Assembly (NCBI GenBank): GCA_017503015.1
Contig: JAFVTX010000001.1
Coordinates: 1-64,000 of the forward strand
Direction of reading: 5' to 3'
Length of the DNA: 64,000 nucleotides
From: Fibrobacter sp.
GTDB lineage: Bacteria > Fibrobacterota > Fibrobacteria > Fibrobacterales > Fibrobacteraceae
Under the pieces are notes generated by a model, which searched no databases, was not told the origin of the DNA, and saw only the letters and a program-made list of their open reading frames with translations. The position numbers and the translations under genes are program-made. Positions 2,864 to 20,522 of the stretch are shown one piece after another (the first letter of the stretch is position 1; every line of letters begins with the position of its first letter).

Positions 2864-3000
2864 GGTTCTTCCACCTTAGACCTAGACCCGAAGCTGGACG
2901 TTGATTGAAACAGCGAAAGTAAGAAAAAAAAGATGTAACGGTTTACCTAGAAAGACGAAATATGTATATTAAATTCGGGAAAATATAGGTTAACGACAAT

Positions 3001-4053
3001 ATGAGAGCAATTGACTTTTTTTGCGGTGGTGGCGGAATGACCTGTGGTCTGCGTCAAGCTGGTATTGATGTTGTGGCTGGTGTTGATTTTGACGAAGACG
3101 CAAAAGAAACGTATGAAGCGAACAACGAAGGCGCTAAATTTGTTCCCGCGGACATAAGTAAACTTGAATTAGACTATTTTGAAAAGGAATTGGGCGTTCG
3201 TCGAAATGACGATGAATTGATTCTTGTCGGTTGCAGTCCATGCCAATTTTATAGCATCATTCGATCTTCAAAAGAGAAATCAAAAGCGTCAAAAGACTTA
3301 CTTTTACAATTTCAAAAATTCATTGGATATTATAACCCAGGATACGTCCTTGTTGAAAATGTTCCTGGGATTATTTCAAATAAGGAAACGGTCCTTTATG
3401 ATTTTTTAGATTTTTTGAAAGATCACGGATATGGAGCTCCAAAATCAAAGACTTGCAAATATGCTATTATCAATATGAAAGATTACGGTGTTCCGCAAAA
3501 CCGTCGTCGTTTTTCACTCATAGCTACTAGGCTGGATAGAGAAGTTCACTTGCCAGAAAAAGAGACGGAAGAAATTACAGTAAGAGATGCAATAGGCGAC
3601 AGAAGAGTATATAGGCGCATAGAAGCGGGACATCGCGATGTTGACAAAAAAAGATTCCACTCTGCAATACAGCTGTCTGAAATTAACCTAGAACGCATTC
3701 GAAACACCTCTCATGACGGAGGGAATCGTTTAGAGTGGAGTAAAAATAGACACTTGCAATTAAAGTGTTATCGAGGCAAAGATCACTCTTTTTGTGATGT
3801 TTACGGACGAATTTTCTGGGATAGACCGTCTCCGACGATCACAACTAAATTTTTGAGTTATTCAAACGGACGTTTTGGGCATCCTGAAGATGATCGGGGA
3901 CTTTCTGTTCGGGAAGGGGCGACCTTACAGTCGTTTCCTTGGGATTATGAGTTTAAGACGACAAGATTAGAAGTGGCTGCAAAGCTAATTGGAAATGCTG
4001 TGCCACCTGAATACGCCAAGCGGTTGGGCCAGGTGATTTTGGAGGATTATTAA
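3001..4053 (+). CDS. DNA (cytosine-5) methyltransferase, first of two
   Basis: A complete C5-cytosine DNA methyltransferase of 350 aa that transfers a methyl group from SAM to cytosine in a specific DNA site. Motifs appear in canonical order: I (DFFCGGGGMTCGL, residues 5-17), IV with the catalytic Cys81 (GCSPCQF), VI (ENVPG, from residue 119), VIII (QNRRRFSLIA), IX (PSPTITT) and X (GNAVPPEYAKRLG). Motif IV reads SPCQ rather than the usual PPCQ. The target recognition region between VIII and IX is short. It is the first gene of a six-gene operon and ends 1 nt before the ATPase gene. With the second methyltransferase (7632) it probably covers the two strands of an asymmetric site, as in LlaJI. 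AT-rich codon use suggests horizontal transfer. Confidence 0.93.
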   Translation: MRAIDFFCGGGGMTCGLRQAGIDVVAGVDFDEDAKETYEANNEGAKFVPADISKLELDYFEKELGVRRNDDELILVGCSPCQFYSIIRSSKEKSKASKDLLLQFQKFIGYYNPGYVLVENVPGIISNKETVLYDFLDFLKDHGYGAPKSKTCKYAIINMKDYGVPQNRRRFSLIATRLDREVHLPEKETEEITVRDAIGDRRVYRRIEAGHRDVDKKRFHSAIQLSEINLERIRNTSHDGGNRLEWSKNRHLQLKCYRGKDHSFCDVYGRIFWDRPSPTITTKFLSYSNGRFGHPEDDRGLSVREGATLQSFPWDYEFKTTRLEVAAKLIGNAVPPEYAKRLGQVILEDY

Positions 4054-4054
4054 T

Positions 4055-6217
4055 ATGAATTCGTCATTTACAATTAATCCTCGGGTGATAGCTCATTTAG
4101 GCGAAGCATTGATAAAAAACGAAAGTATCGCCTTGCTAGAATTGATAAAAAATTCATATGATGCTATGGCGTCAACATGTGATGTATTTTTTTATCATGA
4201 AAAAAATATTTTGTCTGCAATAACAATAACGGATGATGGCGAGGGAATGGATTTTGACACAATTACAAAAAAATGGCTAGTTATAGGAACAGACAACAAA
4301 AAAAGACTTCTAAATGAAGGTATTGAAAAAAAATACAACCGTCTGCCTCTCGGGGAAAAGGGAATAGGACGGTTAGGGGTACATAAACTTGGTAATAAAA
4401 TAAGGCTGATTACAAGAAAACAAAATGCGGAAGAAATTGAGTTGTCTATAAATTGGTCTGAATTAGACAAAGTTAGCGCAATTGAAGAATTTAAAATTGA
4501 AATAAACCGTCATAAGGAACCAAGTTTTTTCAAAGAGAATGCACACGGGACAAGAATAGAAATAAACGATCTTAAACCAGGATGGGATAGACGAAAAATA
4601 AGGGATGTTTATAGAAACATTTTATCATTGAATAGTCCTGTTTTTTTTGATGCTAAAGAGAATGTTTCGGAATCATTTTCTGTTCAAACAACCAGTAACG
4701 ACGAAAGCCTTTTCGAAGGTTTGCCAACATTCGATGAAATAAAATCTGTTGGGATGTATTTTGCACATTGTGAGATGTCTGGGAGTCGTATCACACAATT
4801 TGATTATTCCTTCGTACCATGGAAAACACTGGATAGGGTAAAAGGAGGAAGATCTATAAAGGTTGAAGACCTGTCTAAAACAGATTTTTTGACATTAAAG
4901 AAAAAAATAGTTATTGAAGAGAATGGTCGAGAAAAACAGAAAGATGTTGATGTTGATTTGAACAAAAATAAAGTGGGAACAATACAATTTGATGTTATTA
5001 TTTTTGAACCAGACACGCAAATTATCAGTTTAATGAATTTGGAAAAAACAACATTCCGTTCGTATATGAGGGCGAACGGAGGTGTTCGAGTTTATAGAGA
5101 TAATGTTCGTGTATATGATTATGGCGAGGCGGGGAACGATTGGTTGGGAATAGATGCTGCTAGAATTCATAAACTAGGCGGCAACATTAGTAATCAAATC
5201 GTGCTTGGGGCCGTACGAATTCGTAGAGACCAAAGTCTTGGCCTTGTAGAAAAAACAAATCGAGAAGGATTTGTAGAAAATGAGGCTTATGAGGATTTTG
5301 TCGCAGCTGTTCAGCATGCATTAAAGTTAATTGTTATTCAGAGAAATATAGACAAAGCTTCTTTATCAATTCTTTATAAAGAAAAAAAAGTTATTGAGCC
5401 TGTGTTATCCGATTTAGATGAAGTCATTCAATTGGTTCATGACAAGGTAAAGAATGAACAAGACAAGAATGAAATTTTGAAATCGATTCGTAAGGTAAGT
5501 GATCAGTACAAAAGTGTTAGGGAGATTCTTTTACGCAGCGCTAATGCAGGATTGAATTTGGGAGCCATTATTCATGAAATAGAAAAACAAATTTCAATTT
5601 TGAAGGGATGTGTCGAGCGAAAAGACACTCAAGGCGTTAGTGAAGTATCTGGCAGATTGGATGTTGTCGTTAGAAATGCAATGTCATTGCTAAGGAAAAC
5701 GGATGTTAAGCAAAATAATTTAAATGATATTGCAAACGCTGTGTTAAATGGATTTAAATACAGATTTTCTGACCACCATATAACGGTTTTACAGAAAGCA
5801 GATTCGACGGATATTACGGCATTTGTCTCGGAATCTAGAGTAAAAAGCATCCTGAGCAATTTGTTTGACAACTCTATTTTTTGGCTTTCTCATGCAAATA
5901 ATGATGGTGAAAAAATATTATCCATATATGTTACTGACCAAATGAATGATTTTAACAGTATTATAGTTTCAGATAATGGTCCAGGATTCACAATTCCAGA
6001 GTCATTAGCGGTAGAACCGTTTGTAAGTGGCAAGCCTGATAATATGGGAACGGGTTTGGGTTTGTATGTTTGTCACGAATTTGTTAAATCAATGGATGGA
6101 AAAATGGAATTCTGCAATATAAATGACTATAAACTTCCTGCGGAAATAAAGAAAAGCAATGCAACAAGAGCAATAATTGCTCTTTCTTTCCCCAAAAATA
6201 ATCCGAAGAAGAAATGA
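4055..6217 (+). CDS. Two-headed GHKL ATPase with histidine-kinase-like C-terminus
   Basis: A 720-aa protein with two GHKL (Hsp90/MutL/kinase-fold) ATP-binding domains. The N-terminal one has ELIKNSYDA (29-37), DDGEGM (60-65) and GEKGIGRLG (100-108), like the MORC/Hsp90-type ATPases found in restriction systems. The C-terminal one looks like a sensor-kinase catalytic domain: SNLFDNSIFWL (N box), VSDNGPGF (G1) and GTGLGLYVC (G2). Just before it lies LGAIIHEIEKQI, with His507 placed as in a histidine-kinase H-box. No membrane segment or periplasmic sensor is seen, so it is cytoplasmic. Its stop overlaps the start of the receiver gene by 4 nt (ATGA), so the two are translationally coupled and plausibly partners. 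ATP binding is well supported; autophosphorylation is inferred. Confidence 0.88.
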   Translation: MNSSFTINPRVIAHLGEALIKNESIALLELIKNSYDAMASTCDVFFYHEKNILSAITITDDGEGMDFDTITKKWLVIGTDNKKRLLNEGIEKKYNRLPLGEKGIGRLGVHKLGNKIRLITRKQNAEEIELSINWSELDKVSAIEEFKIEINRHKEPSFFKENAHGTRIEINDLKPGWDRRKIRDVYRNILSLNSPVFFDAKENVSESFSVQTTSNDESLFEGLPTFDEIKSVGMYFAHCEMSGSRITQFDYSFVPWKTLDRVKGGRSIKVEDLSKTDFLTLKKKIVIEENGREKQKDVDVDLNKNKVGTIQFDVIIFEPDTQIISLMNLEKTTFRSYMRANGGVRVYRDNVRVYDYGEAGNDWLGIDAARIHKLGGNISNQIVLGAVRIRRDQSLGLVEKTNREGFVENEAYEDFVAAVQHALKLIVIQRNIDKASLSILYKEKKVIEPVLSDLDEVIQLVHDKVKNEQDKNEILKSIRKVSDQYKSVREILLRSANAGLNLGAIIHEIEKQISILKGCVERKDTQGVSEVSGRLDVVVRNAMSLLRKTDVKQNNLNDIANAVLNGFKYRFSDHHITVLQKADSTDITAFVSESRVKSILSNLFDNSIFWLSHANNDGEKILSIYVTDQMNDFNSIIVSDNGPGFTIPESLAVEPFVSGKPDNMGTGLGLYVCHEFVKSMDGKMEFCNINDYKLPAEIKKSNATRAIIALSFPKNNPKKK

Positions 6218-7626
6218 TAAGAAGTTTTTTAAATTTTTTAAGAGAGAAGATTGTCTATTTGCTAGATCTGGTAATTTCGCCCCTTAAGAAAAAAACTGCG
6301 GAGAATCACTCAATGTTAGAAACAATAAAAAATGTTTTAATAATAGATGACAATTATGACGAAGTTAAAGGTTTGGAAGATGAACTGAAGAAACAAGATG
6401 TTGGCGTCATTTGTTTAAATGCAGATGAAGCAATGACAGTAAATTTGAGACCCAAAGATTTATTATTCTTGGATTTTATGTTAGATGATATGGAAGACAA
6501 GTTTAAGTCTATTATGTCTGCGAAAATTAGGCCTCTTCTTAACAAGCATTTTTGTAAGAAATCTCCATACGGCATAGTGGTTTGGTCGAAACATGAGGAA
6601 AAATTAGATGTTTTTTATGAAAAGTTATACATAGACGCATTAAAAAATAAGGAGTACGATGCCCCTCTATTTGTAATTGTTTTGGATAAAAAACAATATT
6701 TACAATCAGGAAATTTCCAAAATATCATGTCCGATATAGAGGAGAAAATAAAACAATCTGCATCAGCCTCTTTTTTCATTAATTGGAACGCAGGTATTTC
6801 GAAAGCCTCATACGATTCTATTTCGGATATATATGGCTTAGCATCAAGTTTTGCAGACCATGATGACGAAATAAAAAAAATCCTTTTTAAATTAGCCAAA
6901 AGTCAAACAGAAATTCCTAAAAAAGAATTAGAAAAATACATTACAGACAATCTGTTGTCAGATGATGCTTATAAAACTATGGACGAAATACTTTGTTCAA
7001 ATCTAAAATTGAACGACAGAACGTTCCATGATAATTTGTTTTCTTCGATAATGCCGTCCAAAGAGTCTTTTGAAGAAAAAATAAAAATAGCCTCTCACCT
7101 TAATACAAAATTGTTTATAAGTGAAATTCCGCATAATATGACCAATATTGTTCCTGGAAATGTGTATGAAATTTTAGATCCAGCATCCATGCTTAAACTG
7201 GACAATGTTCCTTCTAAATGTAAAAAAATTGCCATTGAACTGTCTCCGCCATGTGATGTTGTTAATAAAAGAAAAAATAATAGATTAGTTGGAGGTATTC
7301 TACTTCCTGCACCATTGAATGAGGCTGATTACATAAACAAATTTAAGGGCCACTATAACCAGGAAGAACATGTGTATAAACCTGGAACGTATTCAAATGC
7401 GTACTATTATGTGTTGCATGCGATGCATCTTCCAAAAAACGAAAGCAAAGCGTTCACGATGATTTTTGATTTTCGTTATTTTTCAAGCGTGCCGGATGCT
7501 GATATACAAAACACTTCAAAATATAAACTCCTATTTAAAGCAAAAAATGATTTGTTTGCAGACATCCTACAAAAATTTTCTTCTCATGGAGCAAGGCTTG
7601 GCTTGGCAGAAATGAGTCTTGATTAA
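6214..7626 (+). CDS. Receiver-domain protein paired with the GHKL ATPase
   Basis: A 470-aa protein. Residues ~39-160 resemble a response-regulator receiver: VLIIDDNYDEV carries the acidic pair Asp45-Asp46, and LLFLDFML carries Asp87 at the phosphoacceptor position. There is no DNA-binding output domain of a usual kind. The C-terminal ~250 residues are not recognised; they include IAIELSPPCDVV with Cys347 and a following GGILLPAPL. An alternative start at Met34 (6313) would keep the receiver and drop a basic, hydrophobic N-terminal leader. The gene overlaps the ATPase gene by 4 nt and ends 5 nt before the second methyltransferase. I infer that it receives a signal or phosphate from the ATPase and acts on the restriction machinery. 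Confidence 0.78.
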   Translation: MIRSFLNFLREKIVYLLDLVISPLKKKTAENHSMLETIKNVLIIDDNYDEVKGLEDELKKQDVGVICLNADEAMTVNLRPKDLLFLDFMLDDMEDKFKSIMSAKIRPLLNKHFCKKSPYGIVVWSKHEEKLDVFYEKLYIDALKNKEYDAPLFVIVLDKKQYLQSGNFQNIMSDIEEKIKQSASASFFINWNAGISKASYDSISDIYGLASSFADHDDEIKKILFKLAKSQTEIPKKELEKYITDNLLSDDAYKTMDEILCSNLKLNDRTFHDNLFSSIMPSKESFEEKIKIASHLNTKLFISEIPHNMTNIVPGNVYEILDPASMLKLDNVPSKCKKIAIELSPPCDVVNKRKNNRLVGGILLPAPLNEADYINKFKGHYNQEEHVYKPGTYSNAYYYVLHAMHLPKNESKAFTMIFDFRYFSSVPDADIQNTSKYKLLFKAKNDLFADILQKFSSHGARLGLAEMSLD

Positions 7627-7631
7627 ATAAG

Positions 7632-8735
7632 ATGAGTATTGGTATTTTTTCTTTCTTCGCTGGATCTGGCTTCCTTGACCTCGGTTTTGAAAAATCGGGT
7701 TATGACATTAAATTTGTTAACGAGTATTTGCCCGCTTTTATGAGCGCCTATAAGTATTCTCGAGAACAAATGAAATTGGACTGTCCTGAATTTGGTTATC
7801 AGAATAACGATATTAATGATTTTCTTAACAATCGAAAAAAAGAATTAAAAGACTTTGTAAGCGTGAGTAAAAAAGAAACTCTTACTGGATTTATTGGAGG
7901 CCCCCCATGTCCTGATTTTTCCGTTGCAGGAAAAAACAAAGGACGGGAAGGTGATAACGGCAAATTATCTTTGTCCTATGTAAATTCCATTGTGACGTTT
8001 AATCCAGATTTCTTTTTGTTTGAAAACGTGAAGGGGCTTTGGCGAACAGCTCGTCATCGTGCATACTTCGAAGAACTGAAAAAAATGTTACACTTTGCTG
8101 GGTATTGTACCACAGAAAGGCTGACAAATTCATTGGAGTTTGGGGCACCACAAGACAGAGATCGCATCCTTCTTTTCGGTATAAAAAAGAAGTATTTAAG
8201 GTCTAAGGATTATCATGATGATGAAATTCTGAATTTTCCATGGGAGTCAAAAATGATTTATTCTATGGAAGATATTCAAAAGTGCAAATGGCCTACAGAA
8301 TCAGTGTTTAAAAAAGACGGAAAATTGTCGCAGCCGAAAAAAATTATTCCAGAACTGACGGTTGAACATTGGTTTAAACAAAATGATGTTTTGAACCACC
8401 CTAATGGTAATGATTTCTTTCAACCCAAGGCTGGCTTGGCAAAAATGAAAGTTATTAAAGAAGGTGATGTTTCAAAAAAATGTTTTAAACGGCTGCATCG
8501 CTGGAGATATTCTCCAACTGCAGCGTACGGCAACAATGAAGTGCATCTTCACCCTTATAAGGAACGTCGACTTTCTGTTGCGGAAACTTTGGCAATCCAA
8601 TCGCTTCCTAAAGATTTTATTCTTCCTCCTGAAATGACGCTGACCGACAAATTTAAAACTGTTGGCAATGGAGTGCCGTATTTGATGGGGAAAGGTATCG
8701 CGGAAACTATTATTGAATTTTTGGAGGGCTTATGA
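7632..8735 (+). CDS. DNA (cytosine-5) methyltransferase, second of two
   Basis: A 367-aa C5-cytosine DNA methyltransferase, different from the first (7632 versus 3001 products share only family motifs). Motifs: I (FSFFAGSGFLDLGFEKSG), IV with catalytic Cys93 (GGPPCPDFS), VI (FENVKGL), VIII (QDRDRILLFGI), a IX-like YSPTAAYG, and X (VGNGVPYLMGKGIA). Having two distinct m5C enzymes in one operon is what a system with an asymmetric recognition site needs, one per strand. The stop overlaps the McrB-like gene by 4 nt (ATGA), so modification and restriction genes are co-translated. AT-rich codon use matches the upstream operon. Confidence 0.93.
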   Translation: MSIGIFSFFAGSGFLDLGFEKSGYDIKFVNEYLPAFMSAYKYSREQMKLDCPEFGYQNNDINDFLNNRKKELKDFVSVSKKETLTGFIGGPPCPDFSVAGKNKGREGDNGKLSLSYVNSIVTFNPDFFLFENVKGLWRTARHRAYFEELKKMLHFAGYCTTERLTNSLEFGAPQDRDRILLFGIKKKYLRSKDYHDDEILNFPWESKMIYSMEDIQKCKWPTESVFKKDGKLSQPKKIIPELTVEHWFKQNDVLNHPNGNDFFQPKAGLAKMKVIKEGDVSKKCFKRLHRWRYSPTAAYGNNEVHLHPYKERRLSVAETLAIQSLPKDFILPPEMTLTDKFKTVGNGVPYLMGKGIAETIIEFLEGL

Positions 8736-10648
8736 CCTACGAAGAATTTCTTGCCAATGTAAAAAAATTAGACAAAACAAAGGAATATAATTACATTTCT
8801 AACAAAGGAAAATTTAAATTAACGGGCGTTGAAAATAGTATTGTAAAAATACTTGTCACTAAAGAAGATTTATCAAAAAAAGAAAGCTCTGTATCAAAAA
8901 ACATCATCGAAGCTTATCTTACCGAACTGGCAAAAGGATATCCTATTGATTGTGCTAAAGTCAGCGGTGAAAGCGGTAGTAATCGTTCGATTCCTCCGTC
9001 TTTATTATGTCTGATGCCGCATATTTTTGCGCTAAAATTAAATAAAAGGGCGCATATTATTGAATTAAAAGAAAAATCGCACAACTTGGGTGAGTTAGAA
9101 TTTATTAATGAATTAGATATTGCAGAAAAGATAAAATTAGGGGAAAAATCGAATCGTGAAAAAATTGAATCTGAATTTAAAAATTATCTGAAAAATATTG
9201 CAAGAAGCAAGCAAACTGGAAAAAAATTAAAAGATTCGTCCATCTCAAGTTATTTACTTTTTCTGAAACCAGAAAAACTGTTTGACTACAATCCTCAAAA
9301 ATGGTCAAATATAGAAAGCATTTATGATATCACAAGTTTAGATAAAATAAATGAAATTCTGCAGACGCTTTTAAAAGATCCTGTCTTTATCAACAGAAAT
9401 AGCAGTGATAACAATGGATTTCGGGCTAGATCGTTAAAACAATACAGAGACTTTCTTATACATCAAACAAATGTGTTTGATAATTACGATTTTGAAGAGG
9501 GAGTGATGCAAGGAATGAAAAATGAACTATCTCAAAAAATTTTCTTCGGAGCTCCTGGCACAGGCAAGTCTCACAAAATTGATTATGACCTTTTTAAAGA
9601 TGAAAATGGGAAACCCATTGGAATGGGTATAAAGGAAATTCCTGAGAACCAGAAATTTCGCACCACGTTCCACCCGGATTACGATTATGCGCAGTTTGTA
9701 GGTGCATACAAGCCCAAGAAAGAATTAAACAAAACTACAAACAAAGAAGAACTAACCTATTCCTTTGTTCCGCAGGTTTTCGCGAAGGCTTACGCTGCGG
9801 CTTGGAAGCTGTATTTAGATGCTAAGGGAGATTCCCGTGATTCTATCGGGGCTTCGCCCCTCCAGAATGACAGCGGGAAAGATATTCAAGTCTATCTCGT
9901 TATCGAAGAAATCAATCGCGGAAACTGCGCCCAGATTTTTGGAGACATTTTCCAATTACTCGACAGGAATGACAAAGGTTTTTCTGATTACAGCATCATT
10001 ATTGACAGTGATTTTGCTGATTGGCTGAAAACGGATTCAAAGGATGGATTGCAAACTGTTTGGAACGATTATATCGGCTTTAGTTATGAGAAAAATGGAG
10101 AAGAAATATACCCTGTTTCCGAAACAAACATTGCTCTCCCGCCGAACCTGAACATTCTTGCCACCATGAACACCAGCGACCAGTCGCTGTTTCCCATGGA
10201 CAGTGCGTTCAAGCGCCGTTTTGACTGGGAATACGTGCCAATCAAATACGCAAAAGATAGTGACTGCGGCGAAGACTGGAATGCCGATAAATTCGCAATC
10301 GACGTCAGTGGTTCAACTTACATGTGGCTCGATTTCTTGAAAAAAGTTAATGCCGACATTTACGACGCCACGCAAAGCGAAGACAAGCAGATGGGCGAGT
10401 TCTTCATTAAGCCGAAGAGCGATGATTTGAAAATTGCGTTCAATGAATTCCGTTCCAAGGTCCTGTTCTATTTGTGGGATTCCGTGTATAAAGACGAGAC
10501 TGAACGGCAGGCCGTGTTCCACTTCCCGTATGGGGATGGTGATGATAAAATAAAAAGCGTGACGTTCCAATCGCTTTTCGGTAAAGATGCTGAAGCTATC
10601 GTGAACAAGATTATGGAAAATCTGAAAGTTGAGAAAGTGACCGCCTAA
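8732..10648 (+). CDS. McrB-like AAA+ GTPase, restriction subunit R1
   Basis: A 638-aa motor subunit of a McrBC/LlaJI-type restriction complex. The N-terminal ~260 residues are unrecognised and probably hold DNA recognition. The AAA+ module has Walker A GAPGTGKS (273-280), Walker B VYLVIEEINRGN, and the McrB-family signature ATMNTSDQS, followed by SAFKRRFDWEY. In this family GTP hydrolysis drives DNA translocation and activates the nuclease encoded next. Residues ~367-383 (9829-9878) are encoded by an intergenic-type palindromic repeat inserted in frame between Walker A and Walker B. The first ~900 bp are AT-rich like the upstream genes, while the rest is GC-rich like the host and the nuclease gene, so the gene looks mosaic. 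Confidence 0.9.
   Translation: MTYEEFLANVKKLDKTKEYNYISNKGKFKLTGVENSIVKILVTKEDLSKKESSVSKNIIEAYLTELAKGYPIDCAKVSGESGSNRSIPPSLLCLMPHIFALKLNKRAHIIELKEKSHNLGELEFINELDIAEKIKLGEKSNREKIESEFKNYLKNIARSKQTGKKLKDSSISSYLLFLKPEKLFDYNPQKWSNIESIYDITSLDKINEILQTLLKDPVFINRNSSDNNGFRARSLKQYRDFLIHQTNVFDNYDFEEGVMQGMKNELSQKIFFGAPGTGKSHKIDYDLFKDENGKPIGMGIKEIPENQKFRTTFHPDYDYAQFVGAYKPKKELNKTTNKEELTYSFVPQVFAKAYAAAWKLYLDAKGDSRDSIGASPLQNDSGKDIQVYLVIEEINRGNCAQIFGDIFQLLDRNDKGFSDYSIIIDSDFADWLKTDSKDGLQTVWNDYIGFSYEKNGEEIYPVSETNIALPPNLNILATMNTSDQSLFPMDSAFKRRFDWEYVPIKYAKDSDCGEDWNADKFAIDVSGSTYMWLDFLKKVNADIYDATQSEDKQMGEFFIKPKSDDLKIAFNEFRSKVLFYLWDSVYKDETERQAVFHFPYGDGDDKIKSVTFQSLFGKDAEAIVNKIMENLKVEKVTA
9829..9878 (+). repeat. Palindromic repeat inserted within the McrB-like gene
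   Basis: GGGGC-ttc-GCCCC (9848-9860) is followed by TCCAGAATGACAG, the same layout as the intergenic repeat near 22995-23035 (ATCGctgCGCTCCAGGATGAC). The insert keeps the frame and encodes GDSRDSIGASPLQNDSG. Confidence 0.65.
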
Positions 10649-10664
10649 AACTTTTTGGTTGTTC

Positions 10665-12548
10665 ATGATTTTCCTGTTCGAAGAATTTGCCTACAGTACC
10701 GATTACCTCAAGGAGGTTATCGGTTATAGGGGCAATAGCGATTTCCAGAGCGAGAGCGGTTTTAATACCAAAGCGGCCGACACGGGCGCCAAAATAAATG
10801 GCGTCGGTTATTGCTTTTTCAACGGGAATCCTGTATTCGTGCTGCCCAAGGTCTTTCTCGACAGCAACAATACAAGGGCTTTCGGCGTGCCGATTGCCGC
10901 CGACGGCAAGGATATTTTCGGTAAGGGCGAGTCGCCCATAAAGAACGTTCAGCGCAGGTTTCTATCGTCGCTTTCGACTTGGCTCTATTCCGCTATCGAC
11001 AAGTACCGCGCCGACAGCGATATGACTGGCGTCCGTTCCCCGGACCACATGGAACATTCCAAGTTCAGGGGCGATGCCCGCTATGCGACGCTGCTCGATG
11101 TCATGAGTAGCATGGAACTGTTCTACAAGAAAAACCAGAACCTGTTCGTCTTTGTCGCCAAGAACAAATATAGCGGAAACAATCGGATTAACTGGCAGCG
11201 GACCATCGCGAAAAAGACGCCCTTTATTCAGGGCGATTCGCCAATCTACATGGAACTGGTGAACAAGAAGAAGGTTTTTGATTTGGACGACCGTCTGCTT
11301 GTTCTGTATTTCTCCGCGATGAAGTTTATCCAGGACGAGTTCGGGTTTGAAATGCCGCAGAGCGAGTTCTACGTTCCGCTCAAAAGGCAGGAGTTCGCAC
11401 GCCTTCTGGAATGCGAACGCGGGCTGCGCGAACTTCGCCGTATCAAGTACAAGTATTTCGAAGACCGCCTGCTGAAACTCTATAACATAATGGAGGCGTT
11501 TTTCCGTTGGGGCGCCAAGTACACCAACAAGAACGTAAAGGCGAAGGAATACCTGATTGCAAATTCGTTCAACAACGTTTTCGAGGCGATGATAGACAGC
11601 CTCATCAGCGACCAGGACGAAAAAGTCACGAAGTTGAAGAAAAACGAAGACGGCAAGATAATCGACCACCTGTACAAGGAAAAGTCTTTGATATTCGCCG
11701 ACGGGAACGAAAGCATTTGGCACATTGGCGATAGCAAGTATTATAAAGAAGAAAACGAGGTGCTCGGCCAGTCGGTTGCAAAGCAGTACACCTACGCCAA
11801 GAACATTGTCCAGGACTTTTTCTCTCCCGATTTTGTCGATGGCAATGACGAATGCTATAGTTCGGGTGTCCATCAAGGGGTGCGCTACAGGGACTCGGTG
11901 ACAGAAGGCTACAGCGTCACGCCGAACTTCTTTATCCGCGGATTTGTCCCGGAGTTCGAAAACGACGATCAGTACGACGATCCGTATTTTTCGAAGAAAG
12001 GCGAATCGAAAGACCCGATCAAGCCCGGCGAAGACATGTGGGGTAAGCGCAACCGTCATTTCCGCAATCGCCTCTTTGACCGCGACACGCTCCTGCTGAA
12101 GGTGTACAACATAAACTTCTTGTACGTGCTCAAGACCTACACCTCCAAGCATTCGTCCCTGCGCGACGATTTCAAGAAGAAGACCCGAAAGAGATTCCGC
12201 GAAGATTTTTTGGAGCTGCTGGGCGACAATTACTACTTCTGGGCCGTATATTTGCCGGACTGGCAAAAACCCGATTATGCAGAACGGCTCCAGGATTTTG
12301 TTGACCGCCATTTCCATGCGCTAGTGGGCCGCGTGTTCCAGCCCGCAGGAACGCCGCACTGCCTGATACTCGCGCTGGAACGGAATGTTGTCGATAAATC
12401 AAAAGAAGGCGACAAAGACGATTATCGAGCGATCCGGAAGATTGTCGACGACGCAAAATGCGAAGTCTTTTACGTATGGCCCCATGAAATATGGGAAGAC
12501 GACGACCTGCGAAATGATAAGTATCGGGGTTGGAATACTGATTTCTAG
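10665..12548 (+). CDS. LlaJI-type restriction nuclease, subunit R2
   Basis: A ~627-aa protein resembling the LlaJI restriction endonuclease family (McrC-like partner of a McrB GTPase). The central segment IWHIGDSKYYKEE fits a PD-(D/E)xK nuclease core (Asp, then Ser-Lys), preceded by acidic residues in SLIFADGNES. The N-terminus (LFEEFAYSTDYL) and C-terminal half show no other domain that I recognise. It follows the GTPase gene by 16 nt and is the last gene of the operon. I chose the ATG at 10665 over a TTG at 10659; neither has a strong ribosome site, so translation may depend on coupling. Codon use is GC-rich, unlike the first four genes of the operon. Confidence 0.82.
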   Translation: MIFLFEEFAYSTDYLKEVIGYRGNSDFQSESGFNTKAADTGAKINGVGYCFFNGNPVFVLPKVFLDSNNTRAFGVPIAADGKDIFGKGESPIKNVQRRFLSSLSTWLYSAIDKYRADSDMTGVRSPDHMEHSKFRGDARYATLLDVMSSMELFYKKNQNLFVFVAKNKYSGNNRINWQRTIAKKTPFIQGDSPIYMELVNKKKVFDLDDRLLVLYFSAMKFIQDEFGFEMPQSEFYVPLKRQEFARLLECERGLRELRRIKYKYFEDRLLKLYNIMEAFFRWGAKYTNKNVKAKEYLIANSFNNVFEAMIDSLISDQDEKVTKLKKNEDGKIIDHLYKEKSLIFADGNESIWHIGDSKYYKEENEVLGQSVAKQYTYAKNIVQDFFSPDFVDGNDECYSSGVHQGVRYRDSVTEGYSVTPNFFIRGFVPEFENDDQYDDPYFSKKGESKDPIKPGEDMWGKRNRHFRNRLFDRDTLLLKVYNINFLYVLKTYTSKHSSLRDDFKKKTRKRFREDFLELLGDNYYFWAVYLPDWQKPDYAERLQDFVDRHFHALVGRVFQPAGTPHCLILALERNVVDKSKEGDKDDYRAIRKIVDDAKCEVFYVWPHEIWEDDDLRNDKYRGWNTDF

Positions 12549-12582: not shown

Positions 12583-12677
12583 TGACCCGAAGGGCGGCGC
12601 TGTGGCGTCGTGAGCGAAGCGAGTATAGCCCGACCCAGCCCTTCGGCAAGCTCAGGGACCTGGGCCGGGGGAACGCC
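12583..12677. repeat. Intergenic palindromic repeat cluster
   Basis: Contains GACCCGAAGGGCGGCGC and CCCTTCGGCAAGCTCAGGGA, GC-rich elements of a type widespread between genes in many genomes. No gene is seen in 12549-12678. Confidence 0.55.
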
Positions 12678-12678
12678 T

Positions 12679-12849
12679 TGTAAAATTTTCTTACCCCTCT
12701 TGCCAATTTTGGGGATATTAGGTACATTAATGCCCGACGTGTTTCTCCGTCTAATGGAGAAATGCGTCTTTTTTTTATTCCGGAATTTCGGGGTAAAGGG
12801 GACGCCTCTAACATCAACAAGCCGCAACATGCGGCAAATGGAGGCTAAA
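12679..12849 (+). promoter_or_regulatory. Duplicated leader, copy 1 (full)
   Basis: About 170 bp directly upstream of the DUF1016 gene, repeated almost base for base at 16145-16315 and, with an internal deletion, at 18549-18594. In order it holds TTGTAAAATTTTC, a conserved ATTAGGTACATTAATG stretch, an intrinsic terminator, GGGGACGCCTCTAACATCAA, a small hairpin (GCCGC-aacat-GCGGC) and the ribosome site GGAGG, 7 nt before the start codon. Confidence 0.8.
12736..12776 (+). terminator. Intrinsic terminator inside leader copy 1
   Basis: The stem pairs GACGTGTTTCTCC with GGAGAAATGCGTC (two G-T wobbles in 13 pairs, loop gtctaat) and is followed by eight T. It lies about 75 bp upstream of the DUF1016 start. 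It could end the restriction operon transcript or act as an attenuator for the next gene. Confidence 0.85.
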
Positions 12850-13926
12850 ATGGCTAAAAAGAAAGACTCGAAAAACGGGTCGATGTTTGTGTTTCGTGAT
12901 GGAATGGTGGCGGATAGCAGTTATGTTGAATGGTTGTCGGACATAAAACAGCGTTTTCGTCAGAGCCAAACAAAAGCATCAATTCGCGTGAACACCGAAA
13001 TGCTGGAATTTTACTGGGGGATAGGTCGCGATTTAGTAGCGTTACGCGCTGAAGAACGTTGGGGAACTGGAGTTGTAAAACAGTTTGCGCTTGACATGCG
13101 TCGGTCATTTCCAAACGAAACAGGCTTTTCTTTCACGAATGTGAAGTATATGAAGCAATGGTATTTGTTCTATTTTGATCGAATAAAAAAAGGCCAACGG
13201 GCCGTTGGCCAATTGGAGATGCCCAAAATCTTTGGTAAGGTCCCCTGGGGACAGCATATAGATATTGTTTCTCGATGTCAATTAATAGACGAAGCAATGT
13301 TTTATGTAAATAATGTAGTGAATAATGGATGGTCACGTCCCGCATTAAACGCAAACATTGATGCCAATCTATTTCAAGCAAAGGGAACTGCGGTCACTAA
13401 TTTCGACAAAACCTTGCCTTCTTCTCAGGAAAAAATTGCAAAGGAAATTTTGAAGGACCCCTATCATTTTGAATTCTTAAAGATGCGGGAAAAATACGAA
13501 GAAGGTGATCTTGAAGACGCTCTTATTGCCAATGTAACGCAGTTTTTGTTGGAATTGGGGAAGGGATTTTCGTATGTCGGGCGTCAAATGGAATTTCGAA
13601 TGCCAGGTGGTCAGGCGTTTTTCCCAGACTTGATTTTTTATTTTATTCCGCAGCATAGATATGTCATTATTGACCTTAAGGTTGTTAAGTATACACCTAA
13701 GTTTGCTGGTAAACTCAATTTTTATGTAACAGCAGCAGATGAACTACTTCGTGGTGAAGGAGATAATCCTTCCGTGGGTTTGATTATTTGCAAATCAACA
13801 GATAAGACGGTTGTAGAATGGTCGCTCAAGGATATTAACAAACCGTTAGGTGTGGCAACATACAAGTTGAGGGAGGTTGTTGATCGTACTATGGCAGAAA
13901 TGAAAATGAAGAAAAAAAGGAGGTGA
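12850..13926 (+). CDS. DUF1016/YhcG family PD-(D/E)xK nuclease-like protein
   Basis: A 358-aa protein of the YhcG (DUF1016) family. The N-terminal winged-helix-like part includes FYWGIGRDLVALR, WGTGVVKQFALDMRRSFP and FSFTNVKYMKQWYLFY. The C-terminal nuclease-like part has FFPDLIFYF, then YVIIDLKV, fitting a D-(D/E)xK core. Family members occur in defence islands and beside type I restriction genes; their precise activity is not settled. The open frame reaches back to 12610, but the ATG at 12850 follows GGAGG at the correct distance and begins exactly where homology would. Full length, so probably functional. Confidence 0.88.
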   Translation: MAKKKDSKNGSMFVFRDGMVADSSYVEWLSDIKQRFRQSQTKASIRVNTEMLEFYWGIGRDLVALRAEERWGTGVVKQFALDMRRSFPNETGFSFTNVKYMKQWYLFYFDRIKKGQRAVGQLEMPKIFGKVPWGQHIDIVSRCQLIDEAMFYVNNVVNNGWSRPALNANIDANLFQAKGTAVTNFDKTLPSSQEKIAKEILKDPYHFEFLKMREKYEEGDLEDALIANVTQFLLELGKGFSYVGRQMEFRMPGGQAFFPDLIFYFIPQHRYVIIDLKVVKYTPKFAGKLNFYVTAADELLRGEGDNPSVGLIICKSTDKTVVEWSLKDINKPLGVATYKLREVVDRTMAEMKMKKKRR

Positions 13927-14005
13927 CTTGAAATCACAAATTTGGCTTCAAGTTGGATGGCCGGAATACCTTCATGGAATTGCGCACGTGTTGACTTTCC
14001 TCAAA

Positions 14006-14226
14006 CCTCTTTGTATATTTATCCCCGTATTACGACAATCCCTGCGACAGTCGGCATAGGCCTTGCGGCCCGTACGTGCATCCGCGGCGGGGTTCATCAA
14101 CCTTCTTGTTGATGTTGTTGGATAAAAGCATCCCAAAACATAACAAACCCAAATTGTGCCTGCAGTGCAGACGCAATTAAAACCGTTTTTAACGTTCGCT
14201 CATGCCGAGCGGGCTAGAGGATTATT
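14006..14226 (+). repeat. Island repeat, full copy A (ORF6N leader)
   Basis: About 220 bp, shared with 22023-22212 (nearly full length), 20108-20236 (3' half) and 1323-1417 (inverted part). Structure elements are a GGCC-ttgc-GGCC hairpin, CATCAAC-cttctt-GTTGATG, an imperfect 13-bp hairpin (AATTGTGCCTGCA paired with TGCAGACGCAATT), and CGCTC-atgcc-GAGCG just before the AGAGG ribosome site. It fills the interval 13927-14226; no gene is seen there. Confidence 0.85.
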
Positions 14227-15312
14227 ATGGCAAGAAAAACTGATAAATTGGCTGTCGCGGAATTCCCGCTTATTGACGAAACCCTGCTCAAATCGCGGAT
14301 ATACACCATTCGCGGGGTCAAGGTGATGCTCGATGCAGATTTGGCCGGGATTTACGGGTATAGCACCAAAGCATTTAATCGGCAGGTCAAGAATAATATC
14401 GATCGTTTTGCGGAGGATTTCCGGTTCCAGCTGTCCAAAAGCGAAGTCGATGAATTGCGGTCAAAATTTTTGACCGCAATTACCGGTGCAAATAACACTG
14501 AAAATTTGCGGTGCAAAAATTGCACCGCAAATCTCAGCACGATGAGCCGCTCCTGTCCCTTTGTTTTTACGGAACAGGGTATTTATATGCTCATGACAGT
14601 GTTGAAAGGTGATTTGGCAGTACAACAGAGTATGGCTCTTATTCGCCTTTTCAAGCAGATGAAGGACTATATCGTTGCTGAAAACCATCAACTGCTCGGA
14701 ACTGCGGGAATTGCCCAGATTGCGGCGCAGACTGTTCAAAATACACATGAAATCGCGGCCGTTTCCGCCGAAGTAAAGGAACTTTCTGGCGAAGTTCGCG
14801 ATATCCGGAGCGATCTGGGAAAAATCAATGTGGACCTCCGGATGGTCATGGAAAATTTCGTCAATCCTTCGTCTTTCAGGCACTTCCTGATTCTGAACGG
14901 GCACAAGCTGGAGGCGGACGTCGCTTACGCGCAGATTTACGGTATGGCGAAGAGGTCGGTGCTGATAGTCGATAACTACGTGGATATTAAGACGCTGAAT
15001 TTGCTGCGGAATGTGCACAAAGGCGTTTCCGTCCTGATTTTCAGCGACTTGCTCGGTGGAAGCCGCATGACAGATGACATGCTTGCCGATTATCGGGCCG
15101 CCCGCCCGGACGTGTCGATTGACAAGAAACCCGCCATGCACAAGTTCCACGACCGCTACATTCTCGTGGATTTCAAGATCAAGAGCGAAAAGTTGTACCA
15201 TTGCGGGGCGTCTTCCAAAGATGCCGGCAACAAGATTACGACCATCGTCCAACTCGACGATGTTGATGCATACCGGAACATGTTCGAGGAAGTGTTGGAG
15301 CAACCAAGATGA
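14227..15312 (+). CDS. ORF6N-domain protein with PLD-like C-terminus
   Basis: A 361-aa relative of the gene at 190-1131. The ORF6N domain spans residues ~20-130 (IYTIRGVKVMLDADLAGIYG, RFAEDFRFQLS, FVFTEQGIYMLMTVLKGDLA). A coiled-coil stretch follows (~residues 165-205, QTVQNTHEIAAVSAEVKE onward). The C-terminus has KFHDRYILVDFKI and LYHCGASSKDAG, a PLD-like half motif. Expected to bind DNA, perhaps as a phage-type antirepressor or island regulator. Two long palindromes lie inside the ORF6N coding region (14453-14532). Its leader is the island repeat, so this gene and the broken copy at 20207 were duplicated together with their control region. Confidence 0.83.
   Translation: MARKTDKLAVAEFPLIDETLLKSRIYTIRGVKVMLDADLAGIYGYSTKAFNRQVKNNIDRFAEDFRFQLSKSEVDELRSKFLTAITGANNTENLRCKNCTANLSTMSRSCPFVFTEQGIYMLMTVLKGDLAVQQSMALIRLFKQMKDYIVAENHQLLGTAGIAQIAAQTVQNTHEIAAVSAEVKELSGEVRDIRSDLGKINVDLRMVMENFVNPSSFRHFLILNGHKLEADVAYAQIYGMAKRSVLIVDNYVDIKTLNLLRNVHKGVSVLIFSDLLGGSRMTDDMLADYRAARPDVSIDKKPAMHKFHDRYILVDFKIKSEKLYHCGASSKDAGNKITTIVQLDDVDAYRNMFEEVLEQPR
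14453..14532. repeat. Two intragenic palindromes in ORF6N gene
   Basis: 14453-14481 is a perfect palindrome with 14-bp arms (AATTGCGGTCAAAA) around one base. 14504-14532 has perfect 13-bp arms (ATTTGCGGTGCAA) around 3 bases. Both fall in the loop region of the ORF6N domain, where the other ORF6N genes of this window also carry palindromes. Confidence 0.85.
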
Positions 15313-15379
15313 CCTTGTATTGGATACGGGAAACTGGTGAAAAAAAACAATTCAGTCAACCAAATAAAGGAAAATTACT

Positions 15380-15712
15380 GTGAAGAAAAAAGCAGAGAAC
15401 GAGAATGAATTTGAGTTGCCGAAGGAACTCTTGGAATCAATAGCTGGGCTTAATGAACTTATGAGCCAGCAGCAGGATCAAGCCGCCGCAATGCTGTACA
15501 GATTAATGTTTCGCCATGAACGGGATCTCCATGTACTCGACCACTATTCAGATGTCGTACTTGAAGGCGTTTCTGGCATGGGTAGCGAGTTCGCGAAAGA
15601 GGATTACAGGAATTTCTTGCAATACCTGTCGTATGTTATTCCTAGCGAATATGCTCCGCATAAGGAAATGTACGAAGAAGAGCTCAGAATCGCCGAAGAT
15701 GATGATGAGTGA
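15380..15712 (+). CDS. Hypothetical 110-aa protein
   Basis: Unrecognised small acidic protein, probably helical, starting at GTG (15380) after an AGGAAA ribosome site. It begins MKKKAENENE and ends EEELRIAEDDDE; the last 37 bp of coding sequence recur at 18607-18643 at the head of a different gene set. It lies 67 bp after the ORF6N gene and directly before a promoter with iterons. No motif suggests a function; the size and island setting would fit a small regulator or an antitoxin-like protein, but there is no positive evidence for either. Confidence 0.6.
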   Translation: MKKKAENENEFELPKELLESIAGLNELMSQQQDQAAAMLYRLMFRHERDLHVLDHYSDVVLEGVSGMGSEFAKEDYRNFLQYLSYVIPSEYAPHKEMYEEELRIAEDDDE

Positions 15713-15717
15713 ACAGC

Positions 15718-15775
15718 GTGTATTACAATGTGTATTGCAATGTGTATTGACAAGTGTATATACATTTTCTACAAT
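15718..15775 (+). promoter_or_regulatory. Promoter with four 12-bp iterons
   Basis: Four tandem units of GTGTATTRCAAT type (15718, 15730, 15742, 15754). The third and fourth overlap a near-consensus promoter: TTGACA (15747-15752), 17-bp spacer, TACAAT (15770-15775). The next gene (15809) encodes a ribbon-helix-helix protein, a class that often binds tandem repeats in its own promoter. Confidence 0.75.
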
Positions 15776-15808
15776 AGGGAGGGTGTGCAATAACTGTAAG
15801 GAGAGCTC

Positions 15809-16144
15809 ATGAAGACGAAGAGCAAAAAGCGCGAGAAGATTAAGCTGCCCAAGGGGTTCAAGCTGGTTGACGATTTCCTGTCTAAAGAGGAAATCGAGGC
15901 GCTCGAGAACGATACCACGATGAGGGATCCGATGGTTATCACCGGTGGTCATGAGTCGGAGACGCTAGAGGAATCCATTGCGCGCATCAGTCGCGCAATT
16001 GCCGAGGCCAAGGAAGAAAAGAAGATGTATTCCATAAGGCTCAAGGTCAAGACGGTGGAATCGATCAAACGCAAGGCCGCCGCCGCGGGCATCCCTTACC
16101 AGACTTACGTGAACGTGTTGCTCGACAACGCCGCGTCTGCCTGA
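15809..16144 (+). CDS. Ribbon-helix-helix (CopG/BrnA-like) antitoxin or repressor
   Basis: A 111-aa protein. The C-terminal ~40 residues (MYSIRLKVKTVESIKRKAAA, then GIPYQTYVNVLLDNA) have the beta-strand plus two-helix pattern of CopG/BrnA-type ribbon-helix-helix DNA-binding proteins. The N-terminal part is charged and probably the toxin-binding or flexible region. Strong ribosome site AAGGAGAG. The upstream iterons suggest that it represses its own promoter. No BrnT/RelE-like toxin is adjacent: the next genes are a duplicated leader and an AlbA_2 protein. It is therefore an orphan antitoxin or a stand-alone regulator. Confidence 0.75.
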   Translation: MKTKSKKREKIKLPKGFKLVDDFLSKEEIEALENDTTMRDPMVITGGHESETLEESIARISRAIAEAKEEKKMYSIRLKVKTVESIKRKAAAAGIPYQTYVNVLLDNAASA

Positions 16145-16315
16145 TTGTAAAATTTTCTTGCTCCCCTAGCCAACTTTCCGAATATTAGGTACATTAATGC
16201 CCGACGTGTTTCTCCGTCTAATGGAGAAATGCGTCTTTTTTTTATTTCGATTTTCGGGATAAAGGGGACGCCTCTAACATCAACCGGCCGTTTTTGCGGC
16301 TAAATGGAGGCTAAA
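16145..16315 (+). promoter_or_regulatory. Duplicated leader, copy 2 (full)
   Basis: Second full copy of the leader at 12679, here before the AlbA_2/ATPase gene. Differences cluster outside the terminator stem and near the small hairpin, which reads GCCG-tttttg-CGGC here against GCCGC-aacat-GCGGC in copy 1: the sequence changes while pairing is kept. Confidence 0.8.
16203..16243 (+). terminator. Intrinsic terminator inside leader copy 2
   Basis: Same 13-pair stem (GACGTGTTTCTCC with GGAGAAATGCGTC) and eight-T tract as in copy 1, about 70 bp before the start codon of the next gene. Confidence 0.85.
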
Positions 16316-17773
16316 ATGACCAAAGAAGAAATTCTAGCTGGTGAATCAGAACTGCTTGAGTTCAAGCGGGATGTTCCCGAACAGAGCGTCAAGTATATCA
16401 AGACCGTTGTTGCCTTTGCTAACGGCAAGGGCGGCACGATTGTCTTTGGCGTGGACGACAAGACCCATAAAATTATAGGCATAAAAAAGAGCGAGGTCTT
16501 TCAGAAAGCCGACACAATCGCTGATACGATTTTCAACAGTTGCGAGCCCAAAATCAGGCCGAGTATCAATCTTCAGGAAATTGACAAGCGCTACATTATC
16601 GTGGTGACGGTTCCTTCTGGAATGCAGCAGCCCTATTACATAAAGAGCATGGGCATTACCGAAGGCACTTTTGTTCGCGTGGCGGCAACGACCCGTGAAG
16701 CAGAACGATACATGCTCAAGGAACTGCTTCTTGAAGGTGAAAACGAATCGTTCGATCAGCAACCAGCTGGCGAAACCGTTTCGAAGGAAGAAGTCGAAAA
16801 TCTTTGTGACAAGATTTATGATTTTACAGCCGGGACATTGAGCAAAAAAGAACGTGCAGCATTGCGAAGGCCGACCGTCAACCAGTTGCTTTCGTGGAAA
16901 CTGTTGAAGAAGGAAGGCCGTTCTTTAGTGGCTTCGAATGGGTTTAAACTTTTGCAGGGGACAAACGGGGATTTCCCTGACGCAAAGATTCAATGCGCCG
17001 TATTCAAAGGAAATATCCGGGGCGATTTCTTGAAGCGACAAAATATGGAAGGGCCTCTTTTTGAGCAGATTGAGTCGGCCTACCAGTTCGTAATGCAGAA
17101 TTTGCCTGTTCAATCCAAGGTAAAGGGGCTTTTTAGGCACGACAGTTCCCTTTTGCCCGAATCTGCCGTGCGCGAAGCCATTGCAAATGCGGTGTGCCAT
17201 CGCAGTTACCTAATCCCTCGCAAGGTGCAGGTAGCATTGTATGATGACCGCCTGGAAGTGACGTCCCCAGGGACGCTTTGCAGGGATATCACCTTGGAAA
17301 AAATGCGTGAAGGCATGTCTAGCGTGCGCAACAAGGGGATTGCAGAAACGTTTATCTATATGCGCATTGTCGAAACATGGGGAAGCGGTATTCCGAACAT
17401 CTTCAAGGCAATGCAAGAAAGCGGCTTGCCGGAACCCGTGATGCAGGATTTTCATGGGGATTTCAGGATAACCTTATATTGGAAGAAATCCGTCCAATCC
17501 CACCCAATCCTACCCAATCCCACCCAATCCCACCCAATCCTACCCAATCCCACCCAATACAGTGAGGTGGAATGGAATCTGCTTAAAATCTTAAAGGACA
17601 ATCCTAAATTAAGTCAAAGCGAAATGGCCGAAAGAATGGGAATGAAGATAAATCGTCTCAAGTATTACTTAAACGAACTTCGAAAGGCTCCGAATCCAGC
17701 AATTCGCCATATTGGCACAACTCGTGATGGCTATTGGGAAATCCTAGTTGATATTAAAGGAGAAATACGATGA
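16316..17773 (+). CDS. AlbA_2 (Schlafen-type) / HATPase_c_4 / winged-helix protein, 1
   Basis: A ~485-aa regulator-like protein. The N-terminal AlbA_2 domain (~8-140) shows ESELLEFKRDVPEQ and VVAFANGKGGTIVFGVDD. The middle ATPase-like HATPase_c_4 region has REAIANAVCHRSY, DDRLEVTSPGTL and ETWGSGIPNIFKAM. A Pro/Asn/His-rich linker encoded by 10-bp tandem repeats (17491-17560) leads to a C-terminal winged helix (SQSEMAERMGMKINRLKYYL). Members of this family are often called ATP-dependent DNA-binding transcriptional regulators or RecG-like proteins; they are common in islands. The start at 16316 follows GGAGG; an upstream in-frame ATG (16304) contains that ribosome site and is unlikely. The 10-bp unit is not a multiple of 3, so repeat slippage would cut off the winged helix. 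Confidence 0.85.
   Translation: MTKEEILAGESELLEFKRDVPEQSVKYIKTVVAFANGKGGTIVFGVDDKTHKIIGIKKSEVFQKADTIADTIFNSCEPKIRPSINLQEIDKRYIIVVTVPSGMQQPYYIKSMGITEGTFVRVAATTREAERYMLKELLLEGENESFDQQPAGETVSKEEVENLCDKIYDFTAGTLSKKERAALRRPTVNQLLSWKLLKKEGRSLVASNGFKLLQGTNGDFPDAKIQCAVFKGNIRGDFLKRQNMEGPLFEQIESAYQFVMQNLPVQSKVKGLFRHDSSLLPESAVREAIANAVCHRSYLIPRKVQVALYDDRLEVTSPGTLCRDITLEKMREGMSSVRNKGIAETFIYMRIVETWGSGIPNIFKAMQESGLPEPVMQDFHGDFRITLYWKKSVQSHPILPNPTQSHPILPNPTQYSEVEWNLLKILKDNPKLSQSEMAERMGMKINRLKYYLNELRKAPNPAIRHIGTTRDGYWEILVDIKGEIR
17491..17560 (+). repeat. 10-bp tandem repeat in coding sequence
   Basis: Seven units of YACCCAATCC (first and last degenerate). In frame it encodes repeated SHPILPNPTQ. Each gain or loss of one unit shifts the reading frame. 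Confidence 0.9.
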
Positions 17774-17967
17774 AGAAAAAATCAGAAGAAGAGAACAAGA
17801 AAGATAATACTGGATGGAATGCCTTTTTGGAATTGCGTAGGCAGGCTCAGCGCGGTATGCTCCGGACCATGCAGCAGCTTTCCGCCGATGCCGAAAAGGT
17901 TGGTTCCGCCGAAATGACACTCGACGAAATCAACGCCGAAATCGCCGCAGCCCGGCATGGGAAATAA
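17770..17967 (+). CDS. Small hypothetical protein, antitoxin-like C-terminus
   Basis: A 65-aa protein overlapping the previous stop by 4 nt (ATGA), so co-translated with the AlbA_2 protein. N-terminus MKKKSEEENKKDN resembles that of the protein at 15380. The C-terminus (MTLDEINAEIAAAR) resembles the tail of several small type II antitoxins, but there is no recognisable toxin next to it. It could equally be an accessory subunit of the AlbA_2 protein. No function can be assigned. Confidence 0.6.
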   Translation: MKKKSEEENKKDNTGWNAFLELRRQAQRGMLRTMQQLSADAEKVGSAEMTLDEINAEIAAARHGK

Positions 17968-17993
17968 ACTTAACCATAAAAGTGAGGAAAAAA

Positions 17994-18353: not shown

Positions 18354-18360
18354 ACTCAAT

Positions 18361-18381
18361 AGGGAACGCACTGCGTTCCCT
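18361..18381. terminator. Hairpin after the 17994 gene
   Basis: AGGGAACGC-act-GCGTTCCCT, a perfect 9-bp stem 8 bp after the stop codon. The downstream T tract is weak, so it may be a terminator or a repeat. Confidence 0.5.
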
Positions 18382-18460
18382 ATTAGCCGCTACTAATATG
18401 GCTTTTATTCCGACATTAAAGGCTACAAAAAGCGCAACAATATTTTTGATCTAATTGAAT

Positions 18461-18481
18461 TTCGTAAACGGTGTTTACGAA
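18461..18481. promoter_or_regulatory. Inverted repeat in intergenic DNA
   Basis: TTCGTAAAC-ggt-GTTTACGAA, perfect 9-bp arms. It lies in a 240-bp stretch (18354-18594) that also holds a short, possibly degraded coding remnant read as YGFYSDIKGYKKRNNIFDL. It could be an operator; no promoter was assigned. Confidence 0.45.
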
Positions 18482-20511: not shown

Positions 20512-20522
20512 ATGTTAAAATT

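Follow-up and report, generated by a model that had tools for sequence, protein, structure and literature searches.

The operon and its restriction core

We analysed a window of 64,000 nucleotides (nt) of Fibrobacter sp. DNA (GenBank assembly GCA_017503015.1, contig JAFVTX010000001.1, positions 1 to 64,000), in which six genes at 3001-12548 form what is, judged by sequence, the core of a LlaJI-type restriction-modification (R-M) operon, with a histidine-kinase-like protein and a receiver protein nested inside it. The genome has 80 copies of the Fibrobacter succinogenes paralogous domain, which by itself makes a Fibrobacter host most likely. All six genes are on the plus strand, and the gaps between them are +1, -4, +5, -4 and +10 nt. 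An earlier note, made from the letters of this DNA, had described a six-gene order with tight spacing on one strand, and the open reading frames bear this out. The family identities that it gave to the C5-cytosine methyltransferases, the two-headed GHKL ATPase, the McrB-like protein and the LlaJI nuclease hold up against Pfam models and sequence motifs. The genes, with the two parts of the McrB-like subunit, are as follows (L numbers are our handles for the other loci compared; aa, amino acids).

3001..4053, plus strand: M1, C5-cytosine DNA methyltransferase, 350 aa (PF00145, E 8e-53)
4055..6217, plus strand: dual-GHKL (paraMORC-type) histidine-kinase-like protein, 720 aa (PF13589, E 6e-20; PF02518, E 3e-14)
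6214..7626, plus strand: receiver protein, 470 aa, receiver domain (REC) and C-terminal output domain (profile search, AlphaFold2)
7632..8735, plus strand: M2, second C5-cytosine DNA methyltransferase, 367 aa (PF00145, E 5e-47)
8732..10648, plus strand: McrB-like subunit, whole gene (AAA_5 match in Pfam)
8732..9532, plus strand: McrB-like subunit, N-terminal part, presumed to set specificity (41.6% identity to L060)
9533..10648, plus strand: McrB-like subunit, AAA GTPase-like part (AAA_5; Walker A at residue 273)
10659..12548, plus strand: LlaJI-family restriction nuclease, 629 aa (PF09563, 36.2 bits, E 5e-9)

The assignment to the LlaJI type, with the McrB-like protein as R1 and the nuclease as R2, is drawn from a PF09563 nuclease above the cut-off of 23.6 bits, a McrB-like subunit with a swapped N-terminus and two C5-methylases in one operon. 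Both M1 and M2 have intact PC, ENV and QxRxR motifs, the McrB-like protein has GAPGTGKS at residue 273 and an intact MNTSD motif, and the nuclease carries a D...DSK motif of the PD-(D/E)xK type in residues 346-362. Because homologues begin with MIFLFE, the ATG at 10665 is more likely to be the start of the LlaJI gene than 10659. M1 is 88% identical to its counterpart in L014, 64% to that in L060 and 49% to the methylase of a stand-alone triple in L148; the M2 proteins of the window and of L060, whose operon lacks the kinase/receiver pair, are 88% identical. In the LlaJI system, specificity is set by R1.LlaJI alone (PMC1459862). No similarity was detected between the N-terminus of the window's McrB-like protein and those of L014, L052 and L056.

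The dual-GHKL kinase and the receiver

The domains and residues of the two nested proteins are located as follows.

4127..4552, plus strand: N-terminal GHKL domain of the kinase, residues 25-166 (PF13589)
5573..5575, plus strand: H507 (in IIHEIEK), candidate phospho-accepting histidine, by position and by the His-E/D/Q pattern in homologues
5831..6112, plus strand: C-terminal HATPase_c domain of the kinase, residues 593-686 (PF02518)
6331..6693, plus strand: receiver domain, residues ~40-160, with D46, phospho-acceptor D87, S125 and K159/160
7141..7611, plus strand: C-terminal output (CD) domain of the receiver, residues ~310-466, by conserved residues

The ATP-site motifs are complete in both heads of the kinase. 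Among 14 homologues, E29, N33, D60, G62, G64, G100, G105, G165 and T166 are invariant in the N-terminal GHKL domain, as are N606, D640, G642, G644, G665, G667 and G669 in the HATPase_c domain. A profile of the kinase family matches the DHp and CA parts of sensor kinases over 477-696 (E 6e-27) and Hsp90-type GHKL proteins at its N-terminus. In NCBIfam, the N-terminus of the kinase matches the BbrUII/HgiDII restriction enzyme model (E 5e-28); the match to MzaB is marginal (E 0.0014). Because of the BbrUII/HgiDII match and the R-M context, the window kinase probably belongs with the paraMORC ATPases of PMC2292703. An S5-type region is placed by its position after the intact GHKL domain, where no domain model matches. 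A His followed by E, D or Q is seen in most CD-type kinase homologues, and H507 of the window kinase matches the H-E signature of the HEF_HK family (PMC8011034).

The 470-aa receiver protein has no Pfam match even at E=10. A profile built from 22 receiver homologues, however, matches receiver domains in PDB (E 2e-6). In the AlphaFold2 model, the fold is the beta-alpha one of receivers, D46 and D87 occupy their expected positions, and strand 3 ends at D87. Foldseek searches with this model returned mostly receivers, and D46 and D87 are invariant in the 22 homologues. What the earlier note had called a receiver-like protein therefore has a true receiver domain by profile search and structure prediction. 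With H507, the CA motifs, D46, D87, S125 and K159/160 all present in the sequence, the kinase and receiver are predicted to be active as a two-component pair.

After the receiver domain, the protein continues through a helical linker into a beta-rich CD domain with an invariant G315, C347, R461 and G463 and an almost invariant D348 (G...PxCD...R). Foldseek gave no identity for this domain, returning only receivers and spurious matches. Matches to helix-turn-helix families, as a sign of a DNA-binding output, were absent in all 34 receivers scanned, and a transcriptional response regulator was rejected for this reason.

The pair recurs in LlaJI loci and co-evolves

In the phylum of Fibrobacter, PF09563 was found at 87 places in 58 of 168 genomes. 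A profile of the dual-GHKL protein identified 13 full-length genes in the same 168 genomes, 11 of them inside LlaJI loci. The probability of this linkage is ~3e-26 by genome fraction, and ~1e-3 to 1e-4 if the cassette merely seeks C5-methylases, of which the phylum has 249, about a third of them LlaJI-linked by a rough estimate. The 11 linked loci include near-copies, so that independent events are fewer, perhaps six. The linkage statistics reject a chance neighbourhood of the pair and LlaJI, which the earlier note had itself named as the finding that would speak against its proposal. When mapped onto a tree of 68 LlaJI proteins, the pair turns up at scattered points in two clades (13/34 rows) and absent from the third (0/34; P 6e-5), which is the classic short-nuclease M-McrB-LlaJI clade.

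In Bacteroidota, the dual-GHKL gene is present in 36 of 396 genomes, and about half of the loci directly follow a C5-methylase; LlaJI, as detected by PF09563, is present in only 2 of the 396. One Bacteroidota locus, L154, has XRE-M-M-x-McrB-LlaJI-kinase-receiver in a single run, a gene order other than that of the window. Homologues were collected by whole-genome searches in place of a single-protein scan of genome contigs, which yielded one distant receiver only (Ferruginibacter).

The C-terminal half of the kinase co-diverges with REC (rho 0.54) and with the output domain (rho 0.76; P 0.002), as computed over 30 dereplicated loci. In the 20-locus subset in which an adjacent methylase is present, rho is 0.59 for kinase and REC versus 0.13 for methylase and REC. 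The receiver thus evolves together with the kinase, as its partner, more than with the methylase.

The kinase has matches in 82 plasmid records, mostly from Campylobacter (43/82), and in two short phage records. The window receiver had no match among plasmids, its closest homologue had none among phages, and the LlaJI query found nothing among viral contigs. On a Campylobacter jejuni plasmid (L012:9001-13454), a dual-GHKL kinase and a response regulator lie beside dcm.

The front end of the operon is exchanged as a block

Alignment to L056, which occupies the same chromosomal site, delimits an exchangeable segment.

2973..9532, no strand assigned: exchangeable front end (M1-kinase-receiver-M2-McrB N-terminus), by alignment to L056

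The window and L056 share 92-98% nt identity up to 2972 and 88% from 9533, and between 2973 and 9532 nothing alike was found. The border at 9533 falls just ahead of the McrB Walker A motif. In L056, the front end consists of another methylase, another dual-GHKL kinase, a HEPN-like receiver and another McrB N-terminus. A front end of the L056 type is also found in L052, whose LlaJI is 94.6% identical to that of the window. In L057, with a LlaJI 93.5% identical, an XRE regulator and an MrcB_N-type McrB are all that accompanies the nuclease; methylase and kinase are both missing. L060 keeps M1 (64%), M2 (88%) and the McrB N-terminus (42%), and an OLD/AAA_21-type ATPase replaces the pair. Since M1 and M2 flank the OLD-type ATPase there, M1 as a gene of the cassette only was rejected, and M1 is common to the cassette and the restriction core. 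In L052, L056, L014 and L070, the sole methylase of the operon belongs to the front end. The GC content at third codon positions (GC3) rises from 0.25-0.33 across the cassette to 0.50 for the McrB motor and 0.68 for LlaJI. In the Bacteroidota locus L148, the closest counterparts to M1, kinase and receiver (49, 51 and 30% identity, respectively) make up a stand-alone operon of three genes, without McrB or LlaJI.

Short segments at 1227-1417 and 13982-14124 of the window are repeated and recur at 79-98% identity around sister LlaJI loci; they are possible recombination anchors for cassette exchange. L053, L055, L057, L061 and L063 have XRE, McrB and LlaJI without a methylase. The McrB of L057 has an MrcB_N domain, and similar N-termini are found in L053, L061 and L063. 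These methylase-free loci resemble a type IV-like, modification-dependent allele of that nuclease.

Further variants were seen in other sister loci. On the minus strand of L058 (13051-18573), a paraMORC4-like GHKL-TIR fusion sits in a LlaJI locus in the same slot as the pair, and two near-identical transposase genes are inserted behind it. In L014 (8700-9060, minus strand), the receiver gene is frameshifted at an A9 run that splits the REC and CD domain frames, which could be an assembly error, decay or phase variation. A loose C-terminal domain was rejected for this locus, because a full receiver gene is present and broken by the frameshift. Also in L014 (11222-20000, minus strand), the M1-kinase-receiver-McrB-LlaJI array has DrmA, DrmB and a NERD-helicase as its immediate upstream neighbours, making a DISARM/LlaJI composite. 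In L013, MzaC/D/E-like genes, with homologues in L020, lie directly upstream of a methylase-kinase-receiver-LlaJI array.

A second class of receivers

Sister loci, and not the window, encode a second class of receivers with a helical C-terminal domain that carries RNxxxH. R263, N264 and H268 are invariant in 12 proteins, and that part is mostly helical in the model; Foldseek matches are limited to the receiver part. An RNxxxH-type motif defines HEPN ribonucleases (PMC3710099). The receivers therefore appear, as far as their sequences tell, to carry interchangeable C-terminal domains of their own (CD or HEPN-like), with nothing recognisable as a link to McrB or LlaJI.

Surroundings of the operon

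One feature downstream of the operon was identified by a consensus match only.

12736..12768, plus strand: terminator-like stem of 15 pairs followed by eight T

The defence island continues at 12610-22007 of the window with a YhcG/DUF1016 nuclease (PDC-S02) and an ORF6N protein (PDC-S05), and the same stretch holds a protein with SLFN_AlbA_2 and HATPase_c_4 and an AbiEi/AbiEii pair.

Relation to known systems

The parent class of the pair is already known and is not a new category: paraMORC proteins were described in 2008, and HEF_HK/Response_reg_2 pairs beside R-M genes in 2021. Iyer et al. (2008) reported MORC and paraMORC GHKL ATPases in R-M operons and proposed a looping or clamping role for them (PMC2292703). 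The window kinase resembles them in its N-terminal GHKL domain, followed by what may from its position be an S5-like region, and in its methylase neighbours, and the TIR of paraMORC4 has its counterpart in L058. Unlike the proteins of that paper, it adds a histidine-kinase C-terminus and a receiver partner, and the paper makes no mention of McrB or LlaJI. VcSduA, a paraMORC3 protein, offers an experimental parallel for a GHKL head that controls a defence effector (PMC12137116).

Bellieny-Rabelo et al. (2021) linked the HEF_HK (PF19191)/Response_reg_2 (PF19192) pair to R-M systems (PMC8011034). The window pair shares with it the order of HATPase_c_3, DHp-like region and HATPase_c, the adjacent gene for a receiver that has no other known domains, the C5-methylase next door and the soluble nature of the proteins. 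However, PF19191 and PF19192 have no match to the window proteins even at E=10, and the distant members in L014 and L016 score 15-18 bits against HEF_HK, which is under the cut-off; membership by Pfam model was rejected, leaving membership by architecture only. The HEF_HK neighbours given in that paper are Vsr, HNH, EcoRII-C, MvaI and other nucleases, with LlaJI absent from the text, and no description of receiver output domains was found in the parts read.

With LlaJI and BsuMI (PMC1459862), the operon shares two C5-methylases, a McrB-like GTPase with a variable N-terminus, a PD-(D/E)xK nuclease and co-directional genes. It differs from the four-gene LlaJI system in the two extra genes between M1 and M2 and in a longer nuclease that scores 36 bits. 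The MZA and DISARM sets adjoin the array in L013 and L014, respectively, whereas the window has neither. EcoprrI-PrrC (PMC3710099), an R-M system with a HEPN anticodon nuclease as its guard, would share the logic of an effector nuclease latent in an R-M locus, the sister receivers having a HEPN-type RxxxxH; it differs in that control by kinase and receiver is proposed here and that the effector domain of the window is not HEPN. In a 2026 paper, the HATPase/REC combination appears only in a list of predicted defence systems that had yet to be tested (PMC13092281). Nesting in LlaJI/McrB operons, cassette exchange and receiver outputs were not found in the open-licence literature searched, which is weak evidence of absence.

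A possible back-up effector beside restriction, or a possible controller of it

We give even chances to the reading in which the pair is a mobile sensor-effector cassette, linked to a methylase and nested in a LlaJI system, that acts as a back-up effector alongside restriction. The N-terminal GHKL/S5 half of the kinase would be an ATP-gated clamp that senses a methylase-linked state of the DNA, possibly that of a genome that is infecting, unmethylated, cut or anti-restricted. Phosphorylation of D87 in the receiver by the C-terminal half would follow, and the back-up effector, probably a growth-arresting one, would be the C-terminal domain that the receiver itself carries, CD in the window and HEPN-like in sister loci. 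The alternatives seen in the same slot, namely HEPN-like, TIR (L058) and OLD-type, are in keeping with a back-up effector, possibly an abortive one. A more specific version, in which the cassette is abortive, a phosphorelay-triggered suicide arm whose paraMORC-type kinase reads the DNA or methylase state and whose receiver is a new enzymatic effector interchangeable with a HEPN ribonuclease, is put forward tentatively. Several points weigh against the back-up reading. Phosphotransfer, DNA sensing and toxicity are predictions from sequence; the CD domain found no match in Pfam, PHROGs or PDB profile searches; and the HEPN-like output of the sister receivers is a ribonuclease candidate by virtue of a motif in a helical region. 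The pair also adjoins C5-methylases without a LlaJI system, so that the methylase may be all that links it to restriction.

The earlier note had proposed instead that the pair detects a cue and relays it on to the McrB-LlaJI complex, placing restriction under phosphorelay control. The tight operon with its 4-nt overlaps, the recurrent placement of the pair directly before restriction genes of one shared transcription unit and the 11/13 linkage in the phylum favour such a controller. However, the triple of L148 has no LlaJI beside it, the LlaJI loci L057, L060 and L181 lack the pair, near-identical LlaJI proteins occur with an unrelated pair or none, an OLD-type ATPase takes the same slot in L060, the receivers have interchangeable output domains of their own, and a separate XRE regulator is already present in L154. 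The relay itself is backed by its conserved residues and by the co-divergence of kinase and receiver, and it is the control of restriction that loses ground. We consider a back-up effector more likely than a nuclease controller, and the controller unlikely.

Slightly more doubtful is a purely paraMORC role, in which the N-terminal GHKL/S5 half is a DNA-looping or clamping cofactor of methylase and endonuclease, the kinase half is structural and the receiver a partner, not a switch set by phosphorylation. The BbrUII/HgiDII-like N-terminus and the MORC/paraMORC proposal of 2008 point this way, as does VcSduA, whose GHKL ATPase is required for phage defence. Against it stand the complete ATP-site motifs in both halves, the conserved candidate His and receiver Asp, and the co-divergence. 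The least probable of these explanations is that M1-kinase-receiver is an independent defence or selfish module at a LlaJI recombination hot spot, uncoupled from restriction. Such a passenger is suggested by the swapping of the cassette between conserved anchors, by stand-alone triples elsewhere and by the GC3 contrast between cassette and LlaJI, but the pair is enriched in two LlaJI clades and missing from the third, the genes form a single tight transcription unit, and in four loci the front-end methylase is the operon's only one.

Since 2021, kinase/receiver pairs have been on record as neighbours of restriction genes, without a known output. The receiver output domains and the cassette exchange make their function testable: does a phosphorelay set off a second effector once restriction has been evaded? 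A ready-made experiment lies in the series of natural alleles, which have a CD-type pair, a HEPN-type pair, an OLD-type ATPase or nothing. If the back-up reading is true, it would give a role to the paraMORC class, relatives of the eukaryotic MORC proteins.

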